Assembly: GCA_022835595.1 (NCBI GenBank)
Contig: BQUP01000006.1
Location: forward strand, 943,307-1,007,306
Source of the DNA: Cystobasidium ongulense
Lineage: Eukaryota; Basidiomycota; Cystobasidiomycetes; Cystobasidiales; Cystobasidiaceae
Direction: 5' to 3'
DNA: 64,000 bases
Shown piece after piece: positions 1,332-58,739 of this stretch; position 1 is the first letter of the stretch, and each line of letters opens with the position of its first letter. The translations under genes were made by a program, and so were the position numbers. The notes beneath the pieces were generated by a model. That model saw only the letters and a program-made list of their open reading frames with translations. It had not been told where the DNA came from and ran no database searches.

Positions 1332-4288
1332 TCAACTCAAGCTCCAAATCTTAACGGTACTATCCCTAGCACCAGTTGCTAGATATCTATCCATGAATCT
1401 CAACCTCTCCACTGGTGAGGTGTGACCATTAATGACTAATTCAGTCTGTTGAAGAGTTGTCCTATTGAAAACTTGAACGTTATTAGTTCCACCAGCAACT
1501 AGAATTCTTCTTGAATCAAATTGTAAGGAAGTAACGGGACCATCATATCGTAAAGATTCAATAGTTCTACCAGTTCTTAAATCCCAAACTCTAACAGTTT
1601 TATCAATTGAACCTGAAACTAAATGTAAATTATCGAATTGTAAGCAAGTAACAGCGGAAGTATGACCAATTAAACTTCTAACACTTTGTCCAGTTCTTGT
1701 ATCCCACATTCTAACACACCCATCCGCTGAACCTGAAGCTAACGCATATGACCATAATTGTAATCCTCCTACAAAATCAGAATACATTTCCCATGATCCA
1801 TCAGCATATGGTGGTGTAGCTTGAGTGAAATTGAAATTTGATAAAGTTGCACTGGGAGTTGAAGGCGAATTTGGTAAACTTCCAGCTAAAGTAGATAGAC
1901 CATAGGCCTGAGAAGAAAGTCTTCTTAGACCGGATAGTGAAGTTTTCTTGGTTCGAGGTGTCATGTACGCTGGTGAGGAAGCTGCGTTCCAAGGGTAATC
2001 AACTGGATCTTGAGCGTATTGAGCTGGACTTTGAGGCAGATTATTCAATGATTTTGACATGTCTGTTTTGACTGCTCCTGGGACACTTGCTTCTTCCATA
2101 TCCGCATCTGCAGGTAAAGGATTCGAGATTGCCCATAGTATATCCATAGTAACTACGCATTGACCTGTATTCAGATCCCAGAGACGAAGAGTCTTGTCAC
2201 TAGATCCAGATACGAGTGATGTATTTTCATAAGAAAGACAAGTGACAGCTTTACTATGGCCTTCTAACAGTCGCATTCGGGCAGCAGAAGGTGCAGGATC
2301 ATTATCGATGTCGCCAGTTCTACCAGACGAAGAAGAGAATGGTACATTCATAGGTTTAGGAGAAGGTAAAAGTGGGAAATCTTCTTCTTCTTTATCCTCA
2401 TTATCGGGTGTCGGTACTCCATTTAAAGTACTTGAATTATTTCGACCTGATACAGAAGAAGGTTTAGAAGAAGAAAAGAAAACATCTTCTTCTGCTTCTA
2501 ATCTTGAACCAGCTCCTACGAAATTCTTCTTTGAACCTCCTCTTCCTCCTGTATTATCATCATCATCGTTATCATCATTTCGAGAAGACGATTGTTCTTC
2601 TTCAGGTAAACCTTGTTCGATCGCAGTTGTTAGATCCCATAAAGCTATTTTACCATCTTCACCACCTGAAATTGCCATATCACCTTCTACTAATAATGCT
2701 TTAACAATACCTTTATGACCATTCAATCTAGCTAATTCTTCACCATCTGTAAGATCAAAGACCGAGACTTGACCATTTCCTCCATTTCCGTTGTGAGAGG
2801 AATGTGAAGATTGAGAATAAGCTGATGTATGAGGTAATGAATAGGAAGCTACTAATAGCCCATAAGGTTCACTAAAATCTAATGAAGTAACTGAAGAAGA
2901 CGAAATTGATGGATTGCGTGATGTGAGAGTCATGAATGCGACATTGGGTGGTAATTGATCGTGTTCGCTTGGTAAGAAAGCAGGCCCTTTACGACGTCTT
3001 GAAGATGTTGACGAGATTTGTTTTCCAGATTGACGTGCTTCAAGTTGTGCTAGTCGATCTGTTACTCCTTCGACTGCATGTCCACAGGAACGAAGGAAAC
3101 ACACAGATGTACGATGGAAGTGTGTCAGCGCGTCAAGCCTAAAAGGATTTTTACTGAAATGAAGGATCAGTGTGGTGAGAAGAACTCACGCTCATCATCC
3201 AATTCCAATTCTTCCTCTTTCAATTCCAACAATCTCTGACCTAATTCATCTTTCATGAACTCCAATTTCCTTATTTTTTCTTCAAGTACTTCTAAATCTT
3301 TCATAGTTAATTTCCTTCTCGTATTCAAAGATTTTTTATCCAGATTGATTTCCTTTATCTCTAACTCTAATTCTGGTTTTGTCAATAATTCTTCTTCCTC
3401 CTCTTCTACTGCTACTTCTCTAGCCGTACCTCCTTCAACTGCCGCCAAAGTTTCATTTCCTTCAGGTATTGTAAGATTTAAATTTGATTTTGGTTTTGAT
3501 GATGTTGAATTTGAAGTTGAACGTAGAGGAGTAGGCATAAAAGAAGATCTTCTTTTAGATTTGATAATTCTTTTCTTTGGAGTAGATTCTATGCTTTCGA
3601 TAGTATAAGAATCACTTGACAAAATACCTCTAGCTCTTTCACCTCTTTCTTTTAATCCTAATTCATTCACTCCAGCTGTTATTCCTAATTGTCTTTCAGA
3701 TAAAACAGCTCTACGTCTACGTCTTGCTAATTTTCGTGAACGTTCGGAAGGGATAGTAGCGTTGAATCCTTCTAGTAAATTTACTGCATTATCATCATCT
3801 TCTTCATTTTCGGATGCTTCTTCCTGTAATGTTGGTAGACCACCGTTGGATCGGGAAATAGATGTAGAAGAAGAAGGAATAGGCAAGCCTAACAAACGAT
3901 CTACATCTTCAATAATTCTTAAATCTGTGCTAGTGACAAGCTTTTTCTGTCCAGAAGCTGCTTTTCTCCCTCTAGCATTCGATGGAACGGCGAGCGCGGT
4001 GCTGTTTGATCTACTAGAGGACGAGGACGAAGCAGCTCTAGAAGCCAGAGTAAAAGTATTGGAAGAAGAAGAAACACCACTCAATCTAGCTAGTGCTATG
4101 AATGCATTTCTAGGGTTTGATAGGTTCAATAAATCGGTTGCACTGCTTCGTGCTGAATGACCGCCGTTTCCGGTAATTGAGGAAGAAGGACCATTTAGGA
4201 AAGCTGGAGAGCTGAGTATGCGGGGATGGAGTAGTTGAGGTGCCTGTATACGCAGAAAGCGGGTAGAACGAGAAATGTTGTATTCCAT
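1332..4288 (-). CDS. MDV1: Mitochondrial division protein 1 (WD40 fission adaptor)
   Basis: Model: complement(1332..3073, 3190..4288), 946 aa. The protein is the cytosolic adaptor that links Fis1 on the outer mitochondrial membrane to the dynamin Dnm1 during fission (family knowledge for Mdv1/Caf4). Visible parts: a Ser-rich N-terminus, a strong coiled coil at about residues 328-366 (LEEKIRKLEFMKDELGQRLL) that runs into the second exon, and a C-terminal WD40 propeller of about seven repeats with WDL/WDT ends. The propeller is interrupted by acidic Ser-rich inserts and by a 140-residue linker after MDILWAISNP, an arrangement typical of fungal Mdv1. The single intron (3074..3189) has a GTGAGT donor. 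The nearer acceptors give a stop or the wrong phase, so I chose TGCAG at 3074-3077, which keeps frame. Codons are notably A/T-ending compared with the MFS genes downstream. Caf4 is the alternative name. Confidence 0.88.
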
Positions 4289-4775: not shown

Positions 4776-5448
4776 ATGCAAGCAGTCAAGCGCGTCAGCA
4801 AGAAGACCCAGTCGCTCACTCAGCGCCTCACGCGGTTGCGACAAGGGCCAGCCAGCATTGCCTTGCCTGCTGGGGTGAAAGAGGTCGAAATGAGCTTTGC
4901 AATGCGGAACAGAGACTACGGCGCGAGGTGCGTGAAAAGCGTCAGGCTTTTCAGTAGTTGTTGGATAGCATTGCTGACTGCATCGCCATGACCTGCTTGG
5001 ATGGCATTGTAGACGATTCCTCAAACTCGACGTCCCTTCTATCCTGTACAAGAATCCTACATTATCATTCAAGCAGAACAGGCCAGAGAGAATTCCTGAT
5101 CCATCGTTGGTGGTTAGATATGGTGGGTTGTTCCTCTTACTCTGCATGCATGAATGAACAGTGTGTGGTGACTGACTGAGGTGTGCTCGGTGATACATAG
5201 ACAATGGACAATCTGCGAGTATTTCACTAAAGGACAAGTCGCATGAGGATATATTGGACGAGTTCAGGACGATAATGAGCTCGTCAGCGTCGTCATCATC
5301 ATCATCGGATAGTCCGTCCACCTTCACGCCCCATCCAGACTCTTCCACCTCGACCTCGTCAAGTCCACCATCGAATACATCGACTAGCACACCACCGCCG
5401 AAGGGAGAGATAGAGTCGGGTGTGGATGTGGGCACGGCGAGGGAGTAG
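4776..5448 (+). CDS. Mitochondrial large-subunit ribosomal protein, L51/S25/CI-B8 fold (MRP49/mL61-like)
   Basis: Model: 4776..4927, 5013..5122, 5201..5448; 169 aa. After splicing, the N-terminal half reads a basic mitochondrial leader-like stretch (QAVKRVSKKTQSLTQRLTRL), then YGARRFLKLDVPSILYKNPT. This matches the L51/S25/CI-B8 pattern 'G-R-F----P-L-Y-NP', a thioredoxin-like fold found in mL43, mS25, mL61 and complex I subunit NDUFA2. The basic leader and the NP motif favour a mitoribosomal protein. The third exon carries a conserved-looking segment ending in DEFRTIMSSS, then a low-complexity Ser/Thr/Pro tail of about 55 residues that is probably not part of the fold. Both introns are GT-AG and keep frame (phases 2 and 1). 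It shares the upstream promoter region with MDV1. The exact paralogue remains uncertain. Confidence 0.72.
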
Positions 5449-6340
5449 ACGCATATCATGTTGGCTTTAATGGTGTTGTTTGTCGCATATCGTATCCGTT
5501 ACTTATTTTCCTTCTCTCTCTCTCGTATACCCTGTCGTTAAGCACTCAGCAGCAGCATTAGAGTGACCAGAGCTGGACCAACGACCCGGCAAGCGAACAA
5601 CGATAGCTGACTACTGCTCACTAACGAGGAATGCAGCACTCAAGACACACGACGGCCACTCTTACTCTTTCCGCCTCTTTGTCGCCACTCTGCATTGACC
5701 TTGGGCGACACAGTGTTGACCTTTTTCACTTCCATCCGTCTTCCTCGACTCGACTCGAATCCAGTCGACACTGTCAGCAGGTCTATCGCATTCCAGACTG
5801 TATCCCGCAGAGAAGGGTGGAGTCCACAAGACACTGGCTGTCGTCCTTCTTCTCCTCCTCCTCCTTGTTCCTGGCGGTCAGACCCTCCCACTCACATCGA
5901 CGACAAGCATCCGAGTCGAGTACAAGTCGCTCGAACAGCAGCCGTAGGACCCCACCCAGATACTATTGCTACCCGGTCTAGATCAAGCGCAACCAACGGA
6001 CTGTATCCTTGTATCTTCACGGGTCGACACACACCTGTGCGCTTTGTTCTCGAGGGACAAAGGCCACCCTTCGCAGGACGGAGGGACATCAAGCTCACCT
6101 CACTTGAGACTCGACTCTACTCTTTCGACTCCAACTCGCTTTCTGCGTCACTCGGCTGCCTCTCATCCTATAGAGACACCGCCTGAGCTGGGGGAGGCAC
6201 ACTCGTTCAATTCATCGCACACCTCACGCTGGCCTTTGAACACCTAGCAACCAGCCCGCATACACGTCGTCAACAACACACACGTCTCGTATATCCCATA
6301 CCCGTAACCACCTGGTACCACTCTCATACAGTCAGCAAAC
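5449..6340. promoter_or_regulatory. Intergenic/5' leader region before CFEM-like gene 1
   Basis: About 890 bp. The + strand is strikingly C+T-rich with repeated ACTCGACTC-like motifs (about 5660-6170) and few purine runs, which looks like a fungal promoter followed by a long 5' leader. The short ORFs inside have no recognisable domain. An upstream exon encoding a signal peptide for the next gene could hide here, but I could not identify one. Confidence 0.45.
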
Positions 6341-8754
6341 ATGGAAAGAGCTTCATCAGCACAAAGACATCGTCAACTACTCCGTCGTCAGAGGGGCGTT
6401 CCCCCATCGTTCGAACCAGAAGAAGCTTTGTCAAGCATAGTAGATTCAGTAGCTTCGGCAGTAGCTTCAGTTACTGCCAAGGGGGGCAGAGTAGCTGTCG
6501 CTGCCGCTGACGATGAAGAAGAGACCAGTCAACCTTTAAGCGCTTGGTGAGTTTGTTGACATTATCGAAATAGAAATGTTTCAGAAACCCTTTCAAAGGG
6601 AATCTGTTTTTTGCCAGATGTCCTGTACTGATGATAAACATGCTCATGCTTGGTATCACTCTAGCTCCGTGTCTTGCTTGACTGTCCACCTCGGGAACGA
6701 CTGCAGGACAGTAGTAAGTCGCTTTCCTACTCGCTGCGTTTTCGATTCACGCCCTCATCCTTCTTTGCTGACATTGCACCTTACGACTTCCCCAATCGAC
6801 CTTAGTCCTGCATGTGCAGTAATCCTGAACTCGCTACTGCGAATACTTGTATCGCTGCTGCTTGTCCTAGGAAAGATAGGGGCGAGTTCTTGAACAATAT
6901 TCAAGCAGTAGGTTTTGAATCCTTTTTCTACTTTTTCCAGTATTCTACTCTCCATTTTTCTGCCCGTACTTGGAGTGACTGAGATTTCTCGGGCCTATTT
7001 TTCCTTTCATCTCGCAGTGGTGTGGAAACGCTCAAGCTGCTGCTTTGATCAATCCCGGCCCTGTTGACGCTATTTCAAGCTCTACTGCACTCTCTCGAGC
7101 TCGTTCTTCGGCTACTGAACTTTCATCGTCCGCAATCAGCGCTAGTACCGTTGCAACTGTGCTCTCTGCAAGTGGTTCACTCATCCTGTCTAGTGCAATC
7201 TCTTCTGTGGCTACTTCTACTACTCGACGTGCTGCAACTATCACGCCCGCCGCATCCACTACTTTAAATACTGAAGATGAATCACTACAGACAAGTCGGA
7301 CCAATCCAAGTATAAACAATGCAGAAGTGACGTCAAATTCATCACCAGACGATAGCAGCAACAGCGCAGTACAAAGTTCAGAAAAGAAAGGAGTTTCAAC
7401 AGGAACTGTAGTTGGTATTGTAGTTGGAATGATAATAGCTTTTGTTATTATTGGATTATGCGTTTGGTTAGTTAGAAGATCTTTATTAGGTAGACATAAA
7501 AAAGGAAAAGAATTCTTAAGAAGTTCGGATCCTGGTGATTGGGTCAACAATGATATCATTAATAAAGATGGTCATGGTCGTTCTACTGGTGTGGGAGGAG
7601 GTGCTGGTGTTGCTGACCTTGATGAAAAATTCGATACAATGAGCGAGAATGATAGAATTGATAGAACTATGCAAGAAAGAAGTGGTAGTATGATATCTGG
7701 TCAAATTATTCAACCTGGTGTAGGAGCTTATGCTCGACATCTCTCTCAAACACCACGATCTTCATCAAATCCTGCTGGGTATGGAAGTTTATATCCTACG
7801 GAGAATGGCAATAATATCGGACATAGGCAAAGTCAAAAACAATATGAAGATATGCATGCTTCCTTAGCTTATCCTTCTCATATGGGTATTTCACCTACTT
7901 CCCCTTATAACACTCATCCTCAATTCTACGCACACCAACAACAAGTTCAACCACAATTTGATCCACAGCAGCATCAATATGTTCAACCGATATTTGCAGC
8001 TACTCCTCATACCTCAATGCAAACTATGATGATGAATGATAATAATGTAACGATGACTCCTCATTCTGCTGGATTAGATTCTACAATGGCGAATCTATCT
8101 CATCGTGATGGATCGATACAGGGTAGTCCATACCCTGAATCTATAACTATGACACCTGAAATTTCACATGTGGTGGATGGAGGAGTTGGAGGAGGTCATC
8201 TCCCCAGTGGGCTGAGCGCTTCTCAATTAGGTAGACATGAATCTATTCCATTTGTTATACCTACTGCTCTTCAACACTCTTCTCCTGGCATTGCTACTAT
8301 CGGTGATGCTGCTGGACATTCTCAAAATTCGCATTCATACTCTGGTAGTATGAGTGGCGTACCACGTTCTCTGACGGCGGGAGGGATTGGCGATAGACTA
8401 TCAACCTCTACTTCGAGCAGCCTAATCTGTATCCCTTCTACAATCCCTCAACGTAGAATGACTCAACAATTGGCTCAGAATGTTCCTCTACCACCTTCGA
8501 CTCCACCTGGGAATGGAAATGCCCCACTACCTCCTATGCCATTACCAGGAATGACAGATAAAATGACAGACATTGGTATGAACAATGGGGCTGAAGGTAA
8601 TGACTCCTCGAAAACGCCAAAGGGATTACCAACAGTTCCAGAGGTGAAATCTTCTGAAAATCCATTCTTGGATATGAATGAAGATGAGGCAGATGATGGC
8701 GGAAAGGACAAGAAAAGGGAATCTTTTACGGGTTTAGCTTATCTTGCTAAATAA
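6341..8754 (+). CDS. CFEM-like eight-cysteine single-pass membrane protein 1
   Basis: Model: 6341..6546, 6665..6713, 6806..6907, 7018..8754; 697 aa. Splicing reveals eight cysteines at residues 69, 73, 82, 87, 89, 100, 105 and 121 (...ACSVSC...DC...SCMC...TC...AC...WCGN), close to the fungal CFEM pattern, which in other proteins binds haem or acts at the cell surface. A Ser/Thr-rich stalk follows, then one transmembrane segment at about residues 249-271 (GIVVGMIIAFVIIGLCVWLV). A basic stop-transfer run and a long Gln/Pro/Met-rich cytosolic tail complete it. Odd: the N-terminus (MERASSAQRHRQLLRRQRG) is basic and is not a signal peptide, so either translation starts in a missed upstream exon or the protein uses the transmembrane segment for insertion. 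Intron phases 2,0,0 and the 49-nt second exon are shared with the gene at 54774-56529. Function unknown; a cell-surface sensor or haem-binding role is speculation. Confidence 0.75.
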
Positions 8755-51746: not shown

Positions 51747-53026
51747 ATGAAGCTCCTCCAAACGTCGGCTGCCGCCACCACTTCTCTCGCCCTGTCAATC
51801 CTATCTGGAGCAGCTTTTCGGTCCGCACAGGCCAGCCCGTTGTTTTATGAAGGCGCATTGGCTTTCATCTCAAATGCTATAGACACACCGTCCACGTCGG
51901 CTTCTTCATCAACTGCTGCACCTTCCGCCTCTGGCATCCCGCCCACTCCTGTCAACAACAACTACAGCTTCTCGGGGCATACTGTGAGTCGGCCTGATCG
52001 GAAGGAGCAAGTGCGCAACAGGAGCGGAAGGAACACATACTGATACAGTGAAAACCTTCTTGTCTATCATCATCTTCCTCCTCTTGCATGTTCGAACATG
52101 CATCCGAAATTTACATTTTAAATACCTCACTCGCTCGGGTATGGACTCTATTTCCGTATACAGCAAGTGTATAGAAACTGCGTGACCCCGAACACATTCG
52201 CGATTACATTCGATGACGGTCCACAAGAAAACCAACCTGCTTTTGTATCTCTTCTGAACGCTGCAAATGCTAAAGGGACATTCTTCGTCAATGGCAACAA
52301 CTGGAGATGTATCTATGATCCTGATATGGTTCAGGAATTGAGGAATACATACAATGCTGGACATCAAATTGGCAATCATGGATGGTGAGTTGTTCATGCA
52401 CTCCCCCTCTTTCATCTGAAAGTAATGGCATGCTAACTTTTGCGCCTTTTCCTGCCACCAGGGGCCACGACCACTCTTCGCAACTCACAGATGAGCAGTT
52501 CAACAACCAAGTGGCTTGGGTCGAAGAAGCTTTAATCAAGATTCTCGGTGTCGTTCCAAATCATTTCCGTCCACCTTATGGTGATTTCGATGACGCAAAC
52601 ATTGCGGTTTTATCAGCAAGAAATTATTCAGCTGCTGTCATTTGGGATCAAATTTCAGGACCAGCCACAGGGACGACAGTAGATGCTTCAAATCAAATGT
52701 ATCGAACTGTAGCTGCCACTTTCCCACAAAATCACATCGTTCTACAGCACGAACAAGATACCGTTGCTATTACTCAAATTATCCCAGCCGCGATTCGTGA
52801 ACTACAAAGTGCAGGTTACAGATTAGTCACTACTTCGGAATGTTTAGGTGTACCGGCTTACCAATGGGTCGGTGAACCTCTGGAACGCGATGTGAGTGAT
52901 CTTACTGTATTCGACCTTTGTAAAGTATTCTCTGAAGCTGACGGTTATTAACTTGTTCTGAAGGCTTCTTGGACGTGCGCGGGTCGACCAGGACCAGGCG
53001 AAGCAGGCCTCAGACACAAGCACTAG
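51747..53026 (+). CDS. Secreted polysaccharide (chitin) deacetylase, NodB domain
   Basis: Model: 51747..51983, 52164..52384, 52462..52891, 52964..53026; 316 aa. Signal peptide about residues 1-29, a short Ser/Thr linker, then a carbohydrate-esterase-4 domain: motif 1 TFDDGP (Asp96-Asp97), motif 2 HGWGH (His151, His155), motif 3 RPPYGD, motif 4 VIWDQ and motif 5 IVLQHE. The enzyme removes acetyl groups from chitin to give chitosan, a wall polymer important in basidiomycete yeasts. Motif 2 normally reads H(T/S)xxH; here the second position is Gly. The metal-binding histidines themselves are present. After ASWTCAGRPGPG the protein ends quickly in a charged tail without the Ser-rich GPI signal seen in several Cryptococcus Cda proteins, so it is likely soluble, or a further 3' exon is missed. 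The specific paralogue is undetermined. Confidence 0.88.
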
Positions 53027-54773
53027 ACGCATGCTTACATGCACCCGAACGAAATTCTGAACTATCTCTGAATATCTCATCATCCTCAAAACCTGACATC
53101 TCAAGGATTCTTATCAAACATGATAAAACGGACACTTTCACCACACGTACAATCAACACGGACAATATGAACTTCGATGAACATCGCAAGATCACAACAA
53201 AATTAACGGACAATCATTGTTTCTTTACCAACTATTAATAATCTATACTCAATATATGTACAAACAGCAACCACGACAATCATTAATACAGCAAACTACA
53301 CCTGGCGTCCCAGTACTCAAAGTCGAACAAAACATTCGTTACATCCGCGAAAATTCCACGTGAGATTTCCCGTACTCACACACCCCTACAGACTCTTTTT
53401 CGTAATTTTCTATATATCACCACGCGACTTTCAACCTTTAGCTTGCCAAATAGGAACACTTAGAGGGGTATCACCTATTGACTGGCAAGGCTCAGGCGTT
53501 TTACGATCCTTTAATACGTGCTTAATAATATACATTTCTCTCTAGGGTCAAAAGTAATATTTCTTTCGGTGGTTTCCGTATGGGAAATACCACTTAGATC
53601 ACGGTCTTTCTATGCAACTCATGTACATAATTTTTTGGGGGCAGCCTGATGAAAGGAAAGGGCTTCAGTGGCAATCTACCAACGTGGACACAGTGCTATA
53701 TCTACTCTCTTCTTGTCTGTTGTTGCTGTCCGCCAGTGAAATTCACATAACACTCTACCCACTGGCCTTGCCTGCGGCACGCTTCGGCACACGTGACCGC
53801 TAAAAGTACCAAAACTACTTTCGAGCACTGAGTCGAGCGTAATGAAGAAACTGAGTGTTTAATCACGGGGTCTTGCACTGAGTTGAACAAAAGTTCGTGT
53901 CCTCACCTGATGTTGACATGCACAAACAGGTGCCAAAATTAGGCAAAAATCCAGCAAAAGATCTACGGCACCTCGGATTCCCATGTGGTCCCCCACCATA
54001 GTACTGACGAGGCCCTAAGCAGCTTAACTTTGCAGATCGGACGGGATGCAGTGCTTTTTGCTTGGTATGGCCGTAGATATTAGTTTGTTTGGACAGGTAA
54101 ATATATTGCACATCAGCAGGTGAGCTTCCGTTCTGGGTGGATTACTTGCAGCGAAACCTTGGAAGAAATCCACTGGCACGTCTGCAGGCTGCCTTTACAC
54201 CAGCAGCATGGCGGACACCGACAATCAAGCCAGAATATACAGAGCTGTGGTAATAGACTTGAGGATATGACCTGAAGTAGCTGACATGGGCTGCGATACT
54301 CCCTTTCACGGTCCAGCCCACAGATCAGATTTTGTCCGGCTGCGATGCCACTTCGCACTCGAAAACGACACTCATCCGACGTCCTCCACGCCAACATTCA
54401 AAGGCTAGCAAACCTGCCTGAACATCGTCGAACAAGCGTCAGTATGTACTTTGTAAACCTTCCTTTGGTAATGCAGGAAGCTCGGTCGAACTCCGCCCGC
54501 CTTCCTGTATGTGTATTTCTATATCCTGGCAATTGACCCAATCATTCAGCTTCAATGGGATCCTCCGTCGCGCTTTCCACTGTTCCAAACTTACTTCCTA
54601 AGTCACTAATCTCACACGATACCTGATTGCCTCCCACTGCGTCCTGGCGGGCCTGCCCATCGAGCTCACATTCAACAGGTATCCTGGTTACATAGTCAAT
54701 CATAGTCGGTGCCCCGCTTGTGAGAACGCCTTTCCTTTCAAACGGTGGTGCGGTGCACCTTCTGGATTAAAAA
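53027..54773. other. Gene-poor 1.7 kb region before CFEM-like gene 2
   Basis: No convincing coding sequence, repeat or RNA gene. The right end should hold the promoter of CFEM-like gene 2. I looked for an upstream signal-peptide exon with a phase-2 donor and found none I could support. Confidence 0.4.
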
Positions 54774-56529
54774 ATGGCCTGGTAAGTTCACGCTGTATCG
54801 AAGTCGTGGTGCGGAATCAGGTGCTGATATCGCTCATTATTTCCCAGCATCCGCACTTGTGGTTTGCAATATCTAACCTCGGATTGTCTTGAAATTGTAC
54901 GGACTCTACAGGCGATTGTCTGGCGCCTACTCGGTCAATGCTGTTAATTGGCTCCCCTGACATTGTATGGCTTTATTCCCACAGCCCGACTGTGCGTGTG
55001 CGAACATATACACTCTGCGCCTCGTGCGGACCTGTATCGAAGTCACATGTCCGGCTACTAGTCTTGACAGCTTTGGGGAGACAATCTCAGAGGTAAGTTG
55101 GTTATATCCAGAATGGGTTATACAGAATCATCACTCACGCAATAACGGTCATTCGTAGGCTTGCGGAAATGACGTCGCAAATTTTGTGATGCCACCCATA
55201 CCTGCATTGCCCTCAATACCTACACCTACTCCGCCTAAAGTCTCGTCCCAGTCAAGGAAGGTACTTCCTTCTACTACCTTTTTAACGACGACAAGATTCC
55301 CAGCAACGCCAAGCGTCCTTCCGACCCCTACATCCGCCCAAGAAGCATATCCTAGCTTACCTGGGACTAGTCGTACATCTGGTCTTCTACCAGGAGAGCT
55401 GAACCAGACTGCTACAATCGACATGCCCGGCAACGCATTACCTCAAACTCCGACAATCAACAGCAAAGGAAACGACCCAGTAGATTGGAACACTCAGACA
55501 GCCGACACCTTCGGAGGCGCCCTAGACGAGAAACAGGGGGAGAGGGAAGATACGGCTACTCTTGTCGGCGCGTCGCTGGCGCAGAGCACGGTAAATGGGT
55601 CACCAATGGACATACAAGAAGGCCAAACTACGAACAGCGCTGGTCTGTCAGGCTCTGATGATAGTGCAGCTCAAACAACTGCATTGTATGGCGGAAAATC
55701 AATACCGACTTCCGGGCCTGAAGGCGCAACGCAGCAAACTGAAACCTCACCGAACAGGACATTCGTAATAGGAGGGGCAATAAGCGGAGTGATCGCAGCT
55801 GTAGTTCTGCTTGGGTTGATAGTTCTCTGCTTGCGAAGACGTCGGAAGCGATCAGAGATGGAGCAAGGCGGTGCGACCAGAAGTACAATACAGTCTTTTG
55901 ACCCTATAACGCACGAAGACTGGTCACGATTTCATACGGCCTCACCTACACAAGAGAAGCACGAACTTCAGGAAAAGCATGAACTCTCAGCTGAAGAGGT
56001 ATTAGAGAAGGTCAAATCGAAGAATACTGCAGATATAGCAGACGCTCTTGTCGCTATGATGGCAGCAGGTGCATCCAATACAAGCGACGAAACAAAGCAC
56101 AAACTGCATTCGCACTTCCAAGATGTTATGCCGCCCCCATCTATGCGAAGCAAGCGATACTCCAAAACCACAACGCATACCTCTCAATCGGAAAGTGAAT
56201 ATGCTTCTATTGGCGGATTCGGGACTTTCCATCCGTTAGATAGCCAAACACAACTATCGTATCCCTTTGAGCGTTCTCCTTCCTCGGCTTCTGCCTTCTC
56301 CACAGGGACCGCCCTACCGACACACGGGTTCGGAAGCTCACTAAGGGACCCAGCTCAATTGTTGTCCCCAAATGCGCCCAGGCAAGGTGCAAAACTGATG
56401 CCGGTGGACCTGGACTTTGGATCAGCAGAACACTCTCGCCAGTCCAGCACCATTTCGATACTGCCATTCAGTCAGACTAGCACAATGGCAAGCATTAATC
56501 TTGGTCCGAACGTTGGTCGGGCTCTATAA
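54774..56529 (+). CDS. CFEM-like eight-cysteine single-pass membrane protein 2
   Basis: Model: 54774..54781, 54848..54896, 54985..55092, 55159..56529; 511 aa. The coding start is an 8-nt exon (ATG GCC TG) with an in-frame stop two codons upstream. Splicing gives cysteines at residues 3, 7, 16, 22, 24, 36, 41 and 57 (MACIRTCGLQYLTSDCLEIP, DCACAN, TCIEVTCP, ACGN). The gaps, 4-9-6-2-12-5-16, nearly equal those of the gene at 6341 (4-9-5-2-11-5-16). An Asp precedes the C-x-C pair, as in CFEM domains. A Thr/Pro/Ser stalk, one transmembrane helix at about 257-280 (GVIAAVVLLGLIVLCLRRRR) and a cytosolic tail with SFDPITHEDW follow. No signal peptide is present in this model. Introns have phases 2,0,0 and exon 2 is 49 nt, as in the paralogue. 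Function unknown. Converges on the allantoicase fusion, with 62 bp between the stop codons. Confidence 0.75.
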
Positions 56530-56591: not shown

Positions 56592-58739
56592 CTATACCCT
56601 AGCTTCCTCTACCAAGACAACTGTCTTTCCGTATTCAAGTATCTCACAGTCCACCTTAGCATCTCCCGTTTCGTTTGTGATGCAAGCGAAGTCTGTTGTT
56701 CTGTCCAAAGCGATCATGGGGTGATGCCAGACCTACGTGAGGAGTGAACGACAAGTTAGTACTGTATAAAAAAATTGAATGCAAAGGATAGCAGAGGATT
56801 ACATACGTTGGGATGATATGTAAAGCCTTGACTTGATGTTGCAATGAAAGCCCGTAAAGTCTGGAGATCTGGCTTGCCGTCCTGTCCGGGCAGAGCAACT
56901 ATAATGAGATATCGATCCGAGCCTCCGCCTAAAGGAAGGAAGGATTGGCTTGTATACTCGTGTCGTTCCAAGACTTTGACTTCGAATTTGGAATTGCTGG
57001 GGCCACCGAGTTCTTGTGTAGGCGTGCAGTGATAAACCGAAAAGTTAGGAGACTGCACCGCGCTCGAATCACTGGGATGCGGCAGAGCAATTATAGGCGA
57101 AAGATGATTGAATTTGAGGGCAGAGCCGAAGTTGGCGGTCACAACTTTCGTACCCTTGGGAACGTGATTTGGGTTCGGGTAAGCTTGAATGACATGACCG
57201 TATGGAGCAAAGGCTTCCGGTGTTAAAAGGAGAGCGGGTATGCTAGGAAATTCTACGTTTGGCAAAGGCTTGTCTGAAGTAGCTGTTGTTGATAAGGAGC
57301 CATTTGTAGCCGCTGCTGACGCGTCTTGAGTGAAGGTAGATGGTTCCGACGAAATTCCATCGATAGCTCGTCTGCCTATCAAGCGAAGGCGCTTTACACC
57401 TCCATCCGGATAAATCGTCATTTTTACGTGTGTGACAGGATGCGAGAGCTGCTCTAGCTGGAGACAGTGCTGTCTATGTGGGCCAGTCTTGATCCTCGGT
57501 AGGATGAGTTCCCAATTTGCGTCGCTTGGCGGCATTTCCTGCAAGCGCAATGTTAGCTTTGTGGGATGGTCTGGACAGTTTAATCGCTCGGATGAGCCTC
57601 ACTCCATCGTATTGAGTCGCATACAAGTCGACACTTTCTGGGAAGTTACCCAAGAAGTGGGCGGTATCAATTTCTGTCCAGTCGAGATAACCCGGCGCTC
57701 CTCTAAAGAGGGTGGGAATAGATCAGCAGTATTCTCTGGTTGAGATTCTGTCTTCCAAACGCACAATTTGACGATGACCCAATCGGTATGGCCCGGTTTC
57801 CGGCTTCTCTTGGTCTCCCAGCCGTCGCCCATGTCTTTTCCTCTACCAGAAAGCAAAAGATTGGCGCCGACACCGTAATGCTGGTCACTGACTGCCACGC
57901 ATCTGCCTCCATTGAAGCTGTGGGCCAAGTCAAATGCGACACGAGGTTCAGGAAACAATGGAACGACGTTGCCGTATACCCTGAATCGTCCTATGCCACC
58001 ATCTGGATGCATGAGTAATTTGACGTGCGTGAAGGGCGTTTGTAGGTGCTCGTCTGCAAGCAGGAATAGGTGTCGTGATGCGGGGCCAAGAGGGGAAACA
58101 GGCAGTATTTCCTTCCACTTAAGTCAAGAAATGGAATGCGTCAGCTTTAGTCGTGGAAGTCTTGTTCTGCCCTGTACTGTTTGAGACGCTCACGTGCTCT
58201 CCCACAGCCGATGGCACGCCGTCTGGCATGAAGCAAGCCATCACAGAAGCTGCAGGACCTTCATTGCCGCTGAAATGACCTGTGTCGATATCTAGACCGA
58301 TTATTGTACCAGACGGGGGGCCTAGGCGAATTGTGACCCTATCGTAACACACGCGTTGTGGTTGAAGTTAGCTCTTATCCTTGTCTTTCTGCTTGTTTAC
58401 GAATGCTATGACTCGGCGAAGCGTAGAGCGGACGAATCTCACCAATCATGGTTTGGATTGTGTCTTCGGGTCTCCCATCCATCGAACAGCGCTCCATTTG
58501 GTCCAAACTGGCCTTTCTTTGATACCGCAGCTGGAACCTTGAGCAGGTCGCTTGCCGGGCTGAAGAACTCGTCGGAGAAGTCGAGTATGTGCCCTCCCAG
58601 AGCTTCGGAGGAGAGTTCTGCGGGTCCGAGTCACAGATAAGAAGGGTGTCGAGCAGCCATTACACCTGTGTCAGGTCTACTTGCCTACGAGGTTTCCGAA
58701 GTGCTCTTGAAAGCTGTCGAGCGGTATACTGCGGGCCAT
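56592..58739 (-). CDS. DAL2,3,3: Bifunctional allantoicase-ureidoglycolate lyase fusion
   Basis: Model: complement(56592..56732, 56807..57538, 57603..57702, 57765..58117, 58194..58338, 58443..58617, 58685..58739); 566 aa. Residues 1-350 are allantoicase (allantoate to ureidoglycolate + urea), built from two jelly-roll repeats: [67 protein letters not shown], then [15 protein letters not shown]-like [14 protein letters not shown] and [20 protein letters not shown]. Residues 365-566 are ureidoglycolate lyase (to glyoxylate + urea): [38 protein letters not shown] and [10 protein letters not shown]. The fusion couples consecutive steps of purine breakdown and matches the arrangement reported as DAL2,3,3 in Cryptococcus. 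Intron 1 begins GCAAGT (GC-AG), required to join LV to ELSSEALGG. Intron 3 ends in a weak TTAAG. It shares a 273-bp promoter region with RIO2. Nitrogen-catabolite regulation is expected. Confidence 0.93.

Follow-up and report, generated by a model that had tools for sequence, protein, structure and literature searches.

Two genes of similar build in the analysed window

The window, that is, the whole analysed stretch of 64,000 nucleotides from contig BQUP01000006.1 of Cystobasidium ongulense, carries on its forward strand two genes for membrane proteins with a cysteine-rich N-terminal domain: gene 1 (6341–8754), with a spliced product of 697 amino acids, and gene 2 (54774–56529), with a product of 511. 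Each consists of four coding exons separated by GT-AG introns in phases 2, 0 and 0, and five of the six introns contain a CTNAY branch-like site. Exon 1 of gene 1 (6341–6546) comprises 68 codons and the first two bases of the codon for the first cysteine (Cys1), and in the spliced model it contains no hydrophobic signal segment. Exon 2 (6665–6713; 49 nt), flanked by introns of 118 and 92 nt, encodes Cys1 to Cys3, exon 3 (6806–6907) encodes Cys4 to Cys7, and exon 4 (7018–8754) encodes Cys8, a stalk, a transmembrane helix and a tail, up to the stop codon. Gene 2 begins with an exon of only 8 nt (54774–54781; ATGGCCTG), which specifies Met, Ala and the first two bases of the Cys1 codon, followed by exon 2 (54848–54896), again of 49 nt, exon 3 (54985–55092), and exon 4 (55159–56529), which holds Cys8, stalk, helix, tail and stop.

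The eight cysteines are spaced by gaps of 4-9-5-2-11-5-16 in gene 1 and 4-9-6-2-12-5-16 in gene 2; as the first-pass annotation had it, splicing assembles this module in both rebuilt models, and the first cysteine of gene 2 is indeed residue 3. Serine and threonine make up 27.7% of the sequence before the helix in gene 1 and 24.6% in gene 2. A 19-residue Kyte–Doolittle scan finds one strong hydrophobic segment in each protein (3.12 and 2.93; next-best segments elsewhere 1.59 and 0.88), corresponding to residues 250–271 in gene 1 (7408–7473), followed by a basic stretch, and to residues 257–280 in gene 2 (55762–55833), followed by RRRRKR. The 15 residues on the C-terminal flank of the helix include six basic and one acidic residue in gene 1, and six and two, respectively, in gene 2, so that the Ser/Thr stalk, single helix and basic C-terminal flank described earlier are recovered in both. 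Codon use in gene 1 exon 1 is coding-like in the true frame alone, which scores 0.24 where the other two give −0.16 and −0.14; among 18,228 segments taken from both strands, genuine coding sequence among them, 2,605 were open and 250 of these scored as high as this exon.

As to the neighbourhood, a WD40-repeat protein is encoded on the opposite strand upstream of gene 1 (1332–3182), and a frame with a polysaccharide deacetylase match (52325–52948, forward strand; 34.3 bits) ends roughly 1.8 kb before gene 2. On the reverse strand, one open reading frame at 56759–57598 matches both an allantoicase repeat (residues 22–77) and ureidoglycolate lyase (residues 120–265), and may possibly encode a fused purine-degradation enzyme.

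Both genes are CFEM genes with the exon plan of a classic member

The Pfam CFEM family (PF05730) is the sole family matched at E values up to 1 by either isolated domain. Taken alone, the domains score 25.3 bits (gene 1) and 19.9 bits (gene 2) at a gathering cut-off of 22, whereas the whole proteins, at 19.9 and 14.2 bits, both fall under it. The profile check thus bears out the proposed CFEM identity, with gene 1 above the cut-off and gene 2 slightly below, and the cysteine spacing of both fits the consensus C-x3-C-x8-12-C ... C-x-C-x9-14-C-x3-4-C-x15-16-C as printed in PMC4530338. In a search of PDB sequences, gene 1 alone retrieved nothing relevant, and a three-sequence profile (genes 1 and 2 and the related gene L001), in whose alignment the eighth cysteine of L001 is misplaced, gave a weak match (E = 1) to the solved structure of Csa2 (4y7s). 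Gene 1 also scores above the cut-off of the Pfam Podoplanin family (35.7 bits against 30), a match that was attributed to mucin-like composition plus a helix and discarded. Neither protein matches a WSC or Opy2 profile at E values up to 1.

The strongest additional evidence for CFEM identity comes from gene architecture. Elsewhere in the genome we found a classic CFEM gene, L001 (G000:C2; 39.7 bits), whose product starts with a signal-like segment, contains a Ser-rich region and is hydrophobic at its C-terminus. The signal peptide is encoded by exon 1, which breaks off in phase 2 within the Cys1 codon; exon 2 is 49 nt long. Between Cys3 and Cys4, L001 and genes 1 and 2 all have a phase-0 second intron, its exact position varying among the three (by one codon as counted from Cys3, by up to three from Cys4), and the third lies one codon ahead of Cys8 in all of them. 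The shared introns and 49-nt exon had been put forward as properties of the pair; they are present in both, but they are not private to it, since a signal-peptide-bearing gene has a closely matching plan. The three-intron plan is therefore a mark of CFEM genes and defines no signal-less subfamily. Two further CFEM genes, L011 and L012, have signal-like N-termini and different first introns. Genes 1 and 2 are, in sum, an unusual variant of the known CFEM family, not a new kind of protein.

One residue of the CFEM consensus, an aspartate that is the heme ligand in Csa2, is missing from both proteins. In the printed consensus it stands before the fourth cysteine, as D-x(2-5) (PMC4530338); the corresponding sequence reads RTVS in gene 1 and LEIPD in gene 2, without the consensus Asp, which is present in L001 (STSDAS) and L012 (SGPADYG). 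Given this absence, a non-heme role of the two CFEM heads appears likely. The loss is not limited to the pair, as L011, which bears a signal peptide, has Asn in place of the Asp.

Relationship of the two genes

We compared four of the five CFEM domains (all except that of L011) under a null model in which cysteine positions were kept fixed and the other residues shuffled 2000 times. The alignment of genes 1 and 2 scores 76 versus 25.5 ± 11.5 for the null, a value reached in none of the 2000 shuffles. Comparisons of gene 1 with L001 (330/2000), gene 2 with L001 (602) and gene 2 with L012 (771) stay within the null, and those of gene 1 with L012 (3/2000) and L001 with L012 (0/2000) go beyond it. 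When the two heads are compared by BLASTP, 21 of 61 residues are identical (E = 3e-7, for a single comparison). To judge from this likeness past the cysteines, genes 1 and 2 are sisters, far diverged from each other.

Searches of the genome with the family, the whole genes, their domains and their juxtamembrane stretches yielded the two genes, L001, L011, L012 and two other loci, L008 and L010, the last (E = 0.98) being discarded as a chance match; genes 1 and 2, whole or in pieces, did not retrieve each other. The idea of a two-member family thus stands as regards sisterhood, and the number two holds for one genome searched exon by exon, a procedure that may miss further members. L008 (G000:C5:878104–881517; E = 2.6e-4) is a stalk-and-helix relative: its frame of 620 codons encodes a Ser/Thr-rich stalk and a single helix like those of gene 1; no DP..DW motif (see below) was seen within this frame.

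Signal peptides and the search for a hidden first exon

A hydrophobicity scan and visual inspection of the two spliced models, built on genomic sequence only, detect no signal peptide in either, in keeping with the first-pass annotation, and on this genomic evidence genes 1 and 2 appear to lack one. The sequence upstream of gene 1 is peculiar in its own right. A stretch of 707 bases (5634–6340) contains no ATG on the forward strand, compared with 11 on the other and 7.1 expected, and the 710-base run without ATG between 5631 and 6341 is the longest in the window on either strand; it is probably a long 5' leader, which would share the stretch with the promoter. In gene 2, an in-frame TAA stands at 54768, no AG occurs between it and the donor at 54781, and this donor restores Cys1 at the intron position common to gene 1 and L001. 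With the frame closed and no acceptor available, the ATG at 54774 is forced if that donor is used. An indel error in the A-run before this ATG was considered and rejected, as shifting the frame by one or two bases reveals no signal-like frame.

The same annotation had allowed for a hidden first exon, for which a systematic enumeration offers no credible candidate. It covered ATG starts from position 5100 (gene 1) or 53000–53300 (gene 2) on, about 1.2 to 1.8 kb upstream, with at most one extra exon and a first intron of at most 1000–1200 nt, and was run with strict donors (GT[AG]NG, hydrophobicity threshold 1.0) and with lax donors (any GT[AGC], threshold 1.9). For the control L001 the strict run returned a single model, the true exon with its 74-nt intron, and the lax run five, only the true one keeping Cys1. 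Under strict settings, the 11 models obtained for gene 1 share a single, weakly hydrophobic first exon of 104 residues and have introns of 392–551 nt, and gene 2 gave six, each with an intron of 559–728 nt; under lax settings the numbers rose to 32, all with an intron of at least 802 nt, and 35, all with at least one intron of at least 559 nt. By comparison, introns in the five CFEM gene models, 16 in all, measure 65–170 nt. The two genes are a real CFEM pair with an unusual first exon.

Membrane topology

A reverse signal-anchor, i.e. a helix that translocates the N-terminal part of the protein, results in type III topology, and both proteins display the sequence features associated with it: no signal peptide, a single helix, and a more positive C-terminal side. 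Because the flanking charges favour an N-out, C-in orientation, the simplest route for both would be that the helix inserts the protein, acting as a reverse signal-anchor. This route had been suggested before; the charges and the missing signal fit it, and it stays a prediction from sequence. Signal-peptide-free translocation of about 250 N-terminal residues is, nevertheless, uncommon. Against N-out export speak the size of the segment to be translocated (249 and 256 residues), the strongly basic N-terminus of gene 1, which disfavours its translocation, and the scarcity of N-glycosylation sites: with Pro excluded, there are none before the helix in gene 1 and one in gene 2 (leaving out an NRT that touches the helix), with three and one, respectively, in the tails.

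Motifs in the tail

Just inside the helix, both tails contain a DP..DW motif, beginning at tail residue 19 in gene 1 (DPGDW, spacer 1; 7528–7542) and at tail residue 23 in gene 2 (DPITHEDW, spacer 4; 55900–55923), where it had been placed by the first-pass annotation. The pattern DP.{0,4}DW, picked after the motif had been seen, occurs within the first 45 tail residues in one (gene 1) and two (gene 2) of 20,000 tail shuffles. Genome-wide, DPxDW matches 39 times versus 13 for the reversed pattern, being three times commoner; of 30 matches read, 19 have a preceding open frame long enough to be scored for a helix, and among these, within the limits that introns set to the test, a clear helix precedes the motif in gene 1 alone (3.12; the next are L033 with 1.93, L032 with 1.87 and L027 with 1.78). 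The tail motif of gene 2, with its longer spacer, falls outside this set. Its stalk has a second copy, DPVDW (residues 161–165), on the opposite side of the helix from the first and among the nine matches left unread. The juxtamembrane stretches of the two genes failed to find each other in the genome searches. The notion of a common cytosolic partner is weakened, as the short motif on which it depends was picked post hoc.

NPFxD is an endocytosis signal. The tail of gene 1 contains a sequence that fits it, NPFLD (8659–8673); a motif of this type arises in 0.4% of shuffles of this tail, and gene 2 has none. The reference list of PMC6685044 includes a paper whose title links NPFXD with a yeast wall stress sensor.

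Comparison with known proteins

Genes 1 and 2 match the CFEM family (PF05730; e.g. Csa2, Rbt5, ACI1) in the eight-cysteine spacing near the N-terminus and have the exon plan of L001, a classic family member encoded in the same genome. They differ in that no signal peptide was found and the consensus Asp is absent, and in ending not in a secreted or GPI-anchored form but in a transmembrane helix followed by a long tail.

As a functional precedent, the most relevant may be Cfs1 (CNJ01390) of the basidiomycete yeasts Cryptococcus deneoformans and C. neoformans, likewise a CFEM protein with a transmembrane segment, likened here by description. According to PMC9241590, it is required for cell fusion in mating, localizes to vesicles, around the surface and to vacuoles, and its loss is not rescued for fusion by hemin. 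CFEM proteins with no predicted signal peptide, one of them with a single transmembrane segment, are already in print: PMC8540330 reports FgCFEM21 of Fusarium graminearum, with CFEM at residues 9–83 of 312, no predicted signal peptide and one transmembrane segment, as one of three out of 23 CFEM proteins of that species without a predicted signal, and notes that SecretomeP flags it as possibly non-classical; PMC8721227 likewise gives no predicted signal peptide for LtCFEM9. Compared by description, FgCFEM21 is like genes 1 and 2 in pairing a CFEM domain with a single transmembrane segment and no predicted signal peptide, and differs in being an ascomycete gene model. Among the listed titles and abstract openings of open-licence papers, none dealt with single-helix CFEM proteins that lack a signal peptide in basidiomycete yeasts.

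Genes 1 and 2, which lack any WSC or Opy2 profile match, also resemble WSC-type wall sensors and Opy2 in layout. A stalk and a tail are found in both WSC sensors and Opy2, and Wsc1 carries an NPFxD signal. WSC sensors are described as having a Cys-rich head (PMC6685044) and OpyA as a HOG-branch protein with a single transmembrane segment (PMC7494837).

Competing explanations

The chief rival account is that the two are ordinary type I CFEM proteins with a transmembrane helix, whose signal exon lies upstream behind an unusually long intron or whose translation begins at a non-ATG start, the apparent first exons being alternative starts or artefacts. We regard this as rather unlikely, yet it deserves serious weight: the other three CFEM genes (L001, L011 and L012) each start with a signal-like hydrophobic segment, as judged by eye, a Ser/Thr-rich stalk is normal in exported proteins, and hydrophobic ATG-initiated peptides do exist upstream, namely at 54046–54119 before gene 2 (2.14, with a consensus donor) and before gene 1 at 5458 (2.68, more hydrophobic but without a consensus donor) and 5631 (weak, 1.62, donor GTAGGA). 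What tells against it is that every hidden-exon model needs introns (392–728 nt in the strict run, at least 802 or at least 559 nt in the lax one) outside the 65–170 nt range of the CFEM genes seen here, that direct signal-exon models of gene 2 lose Cys1, that no ATG occurs from 5631 to the start of gene 1 at 6341, and that the shifted frames before gene 2 exon 1 are not signal-like.

That the CFEM head instead stays in the cytosol (N-in), or that the proteins sit in an inner membrane, with the eight cysteines in a redox or scaffold role, would agree with the missing signal peptide, the basic N-terminus of gene 1 and the few glycosylation sites before the helix. We nevertheless consider it improbable, as the helix-flanking charges favour N-out in both proteins, the conserved eight-cysteine spacing suggests disulphides, and Cfs1, akin by description only, is placed in vesicles, around the surface and in vacuoles (PMC9241590). 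Least probable of all, and very unlikely in our judgement, is decay of gene 2 (or of both genes) after loss of the signal exon. The 8-nt first exon, the CFEM score below cut-off and the weaker codon bias of gene 2 exon 4 (0.025 versus 0.215 in gene 1) might suggest it, but the eight cysteines, the splice sites and the 456-codon open exon 4 are all intact, and the true frame of that exon still scores best of the three.

Proposed mechanism and implications

The explanation we consider best, and to which we give about an even chance, is that genes 1 and 2 encode sister CFEM proteins in which the signal exon was replaced, the helix inserts the protein N-out, the head is of a non-heme type and the tail is coupled to a cytosolic partner. 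The signal-bearing exon 1 of an ordinary CFEM gene would have given way to a signal-less one, of 68 codons in gene 1 and two codons in gene 2. The helix would then serve as a reverse signal-anchor, translocating the CFEM head together with the mucin-like stalk (249 and 256 residues) and leaving the C-terminal tail in the cytosol. Without the consensus Asp, the head may bind something other than heme, for example a wall polymer, another protein as its partner, or a cue related to mating or stress; the tail might couple it to a cytosolic partner via DP..DW, in gene 1 also via the NPFxD-type endocytosis signal. A more specific version, which we offer tentatively and with somewhat less than even confidence, sees here a CFEM receptor subfamily that replaced exon 1, lost both signal peptide and heme binding, exports a head and stalk of ~250 residues by a reverse signal-anchor, and docks a shared cytosolic partner by DP..DW. 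As to role, the two would be best understood as N-out surface proteins with a non-heme sensor or adhesion function.

Export of CFEM proteins is usually ascribed to a cleavable signal peptide, whose presence serves surveys of the family as the criterion for choosing candidates (e.g. PMC8540330). If genes 1 and 2 are exported without a signal, they would be test cases for the signal-free export of a long, disulphide-rich N-terminal domain, and signal-based filters would overlook a class of fungal surface proteins that may include receptors for mating or for sensing the wall.
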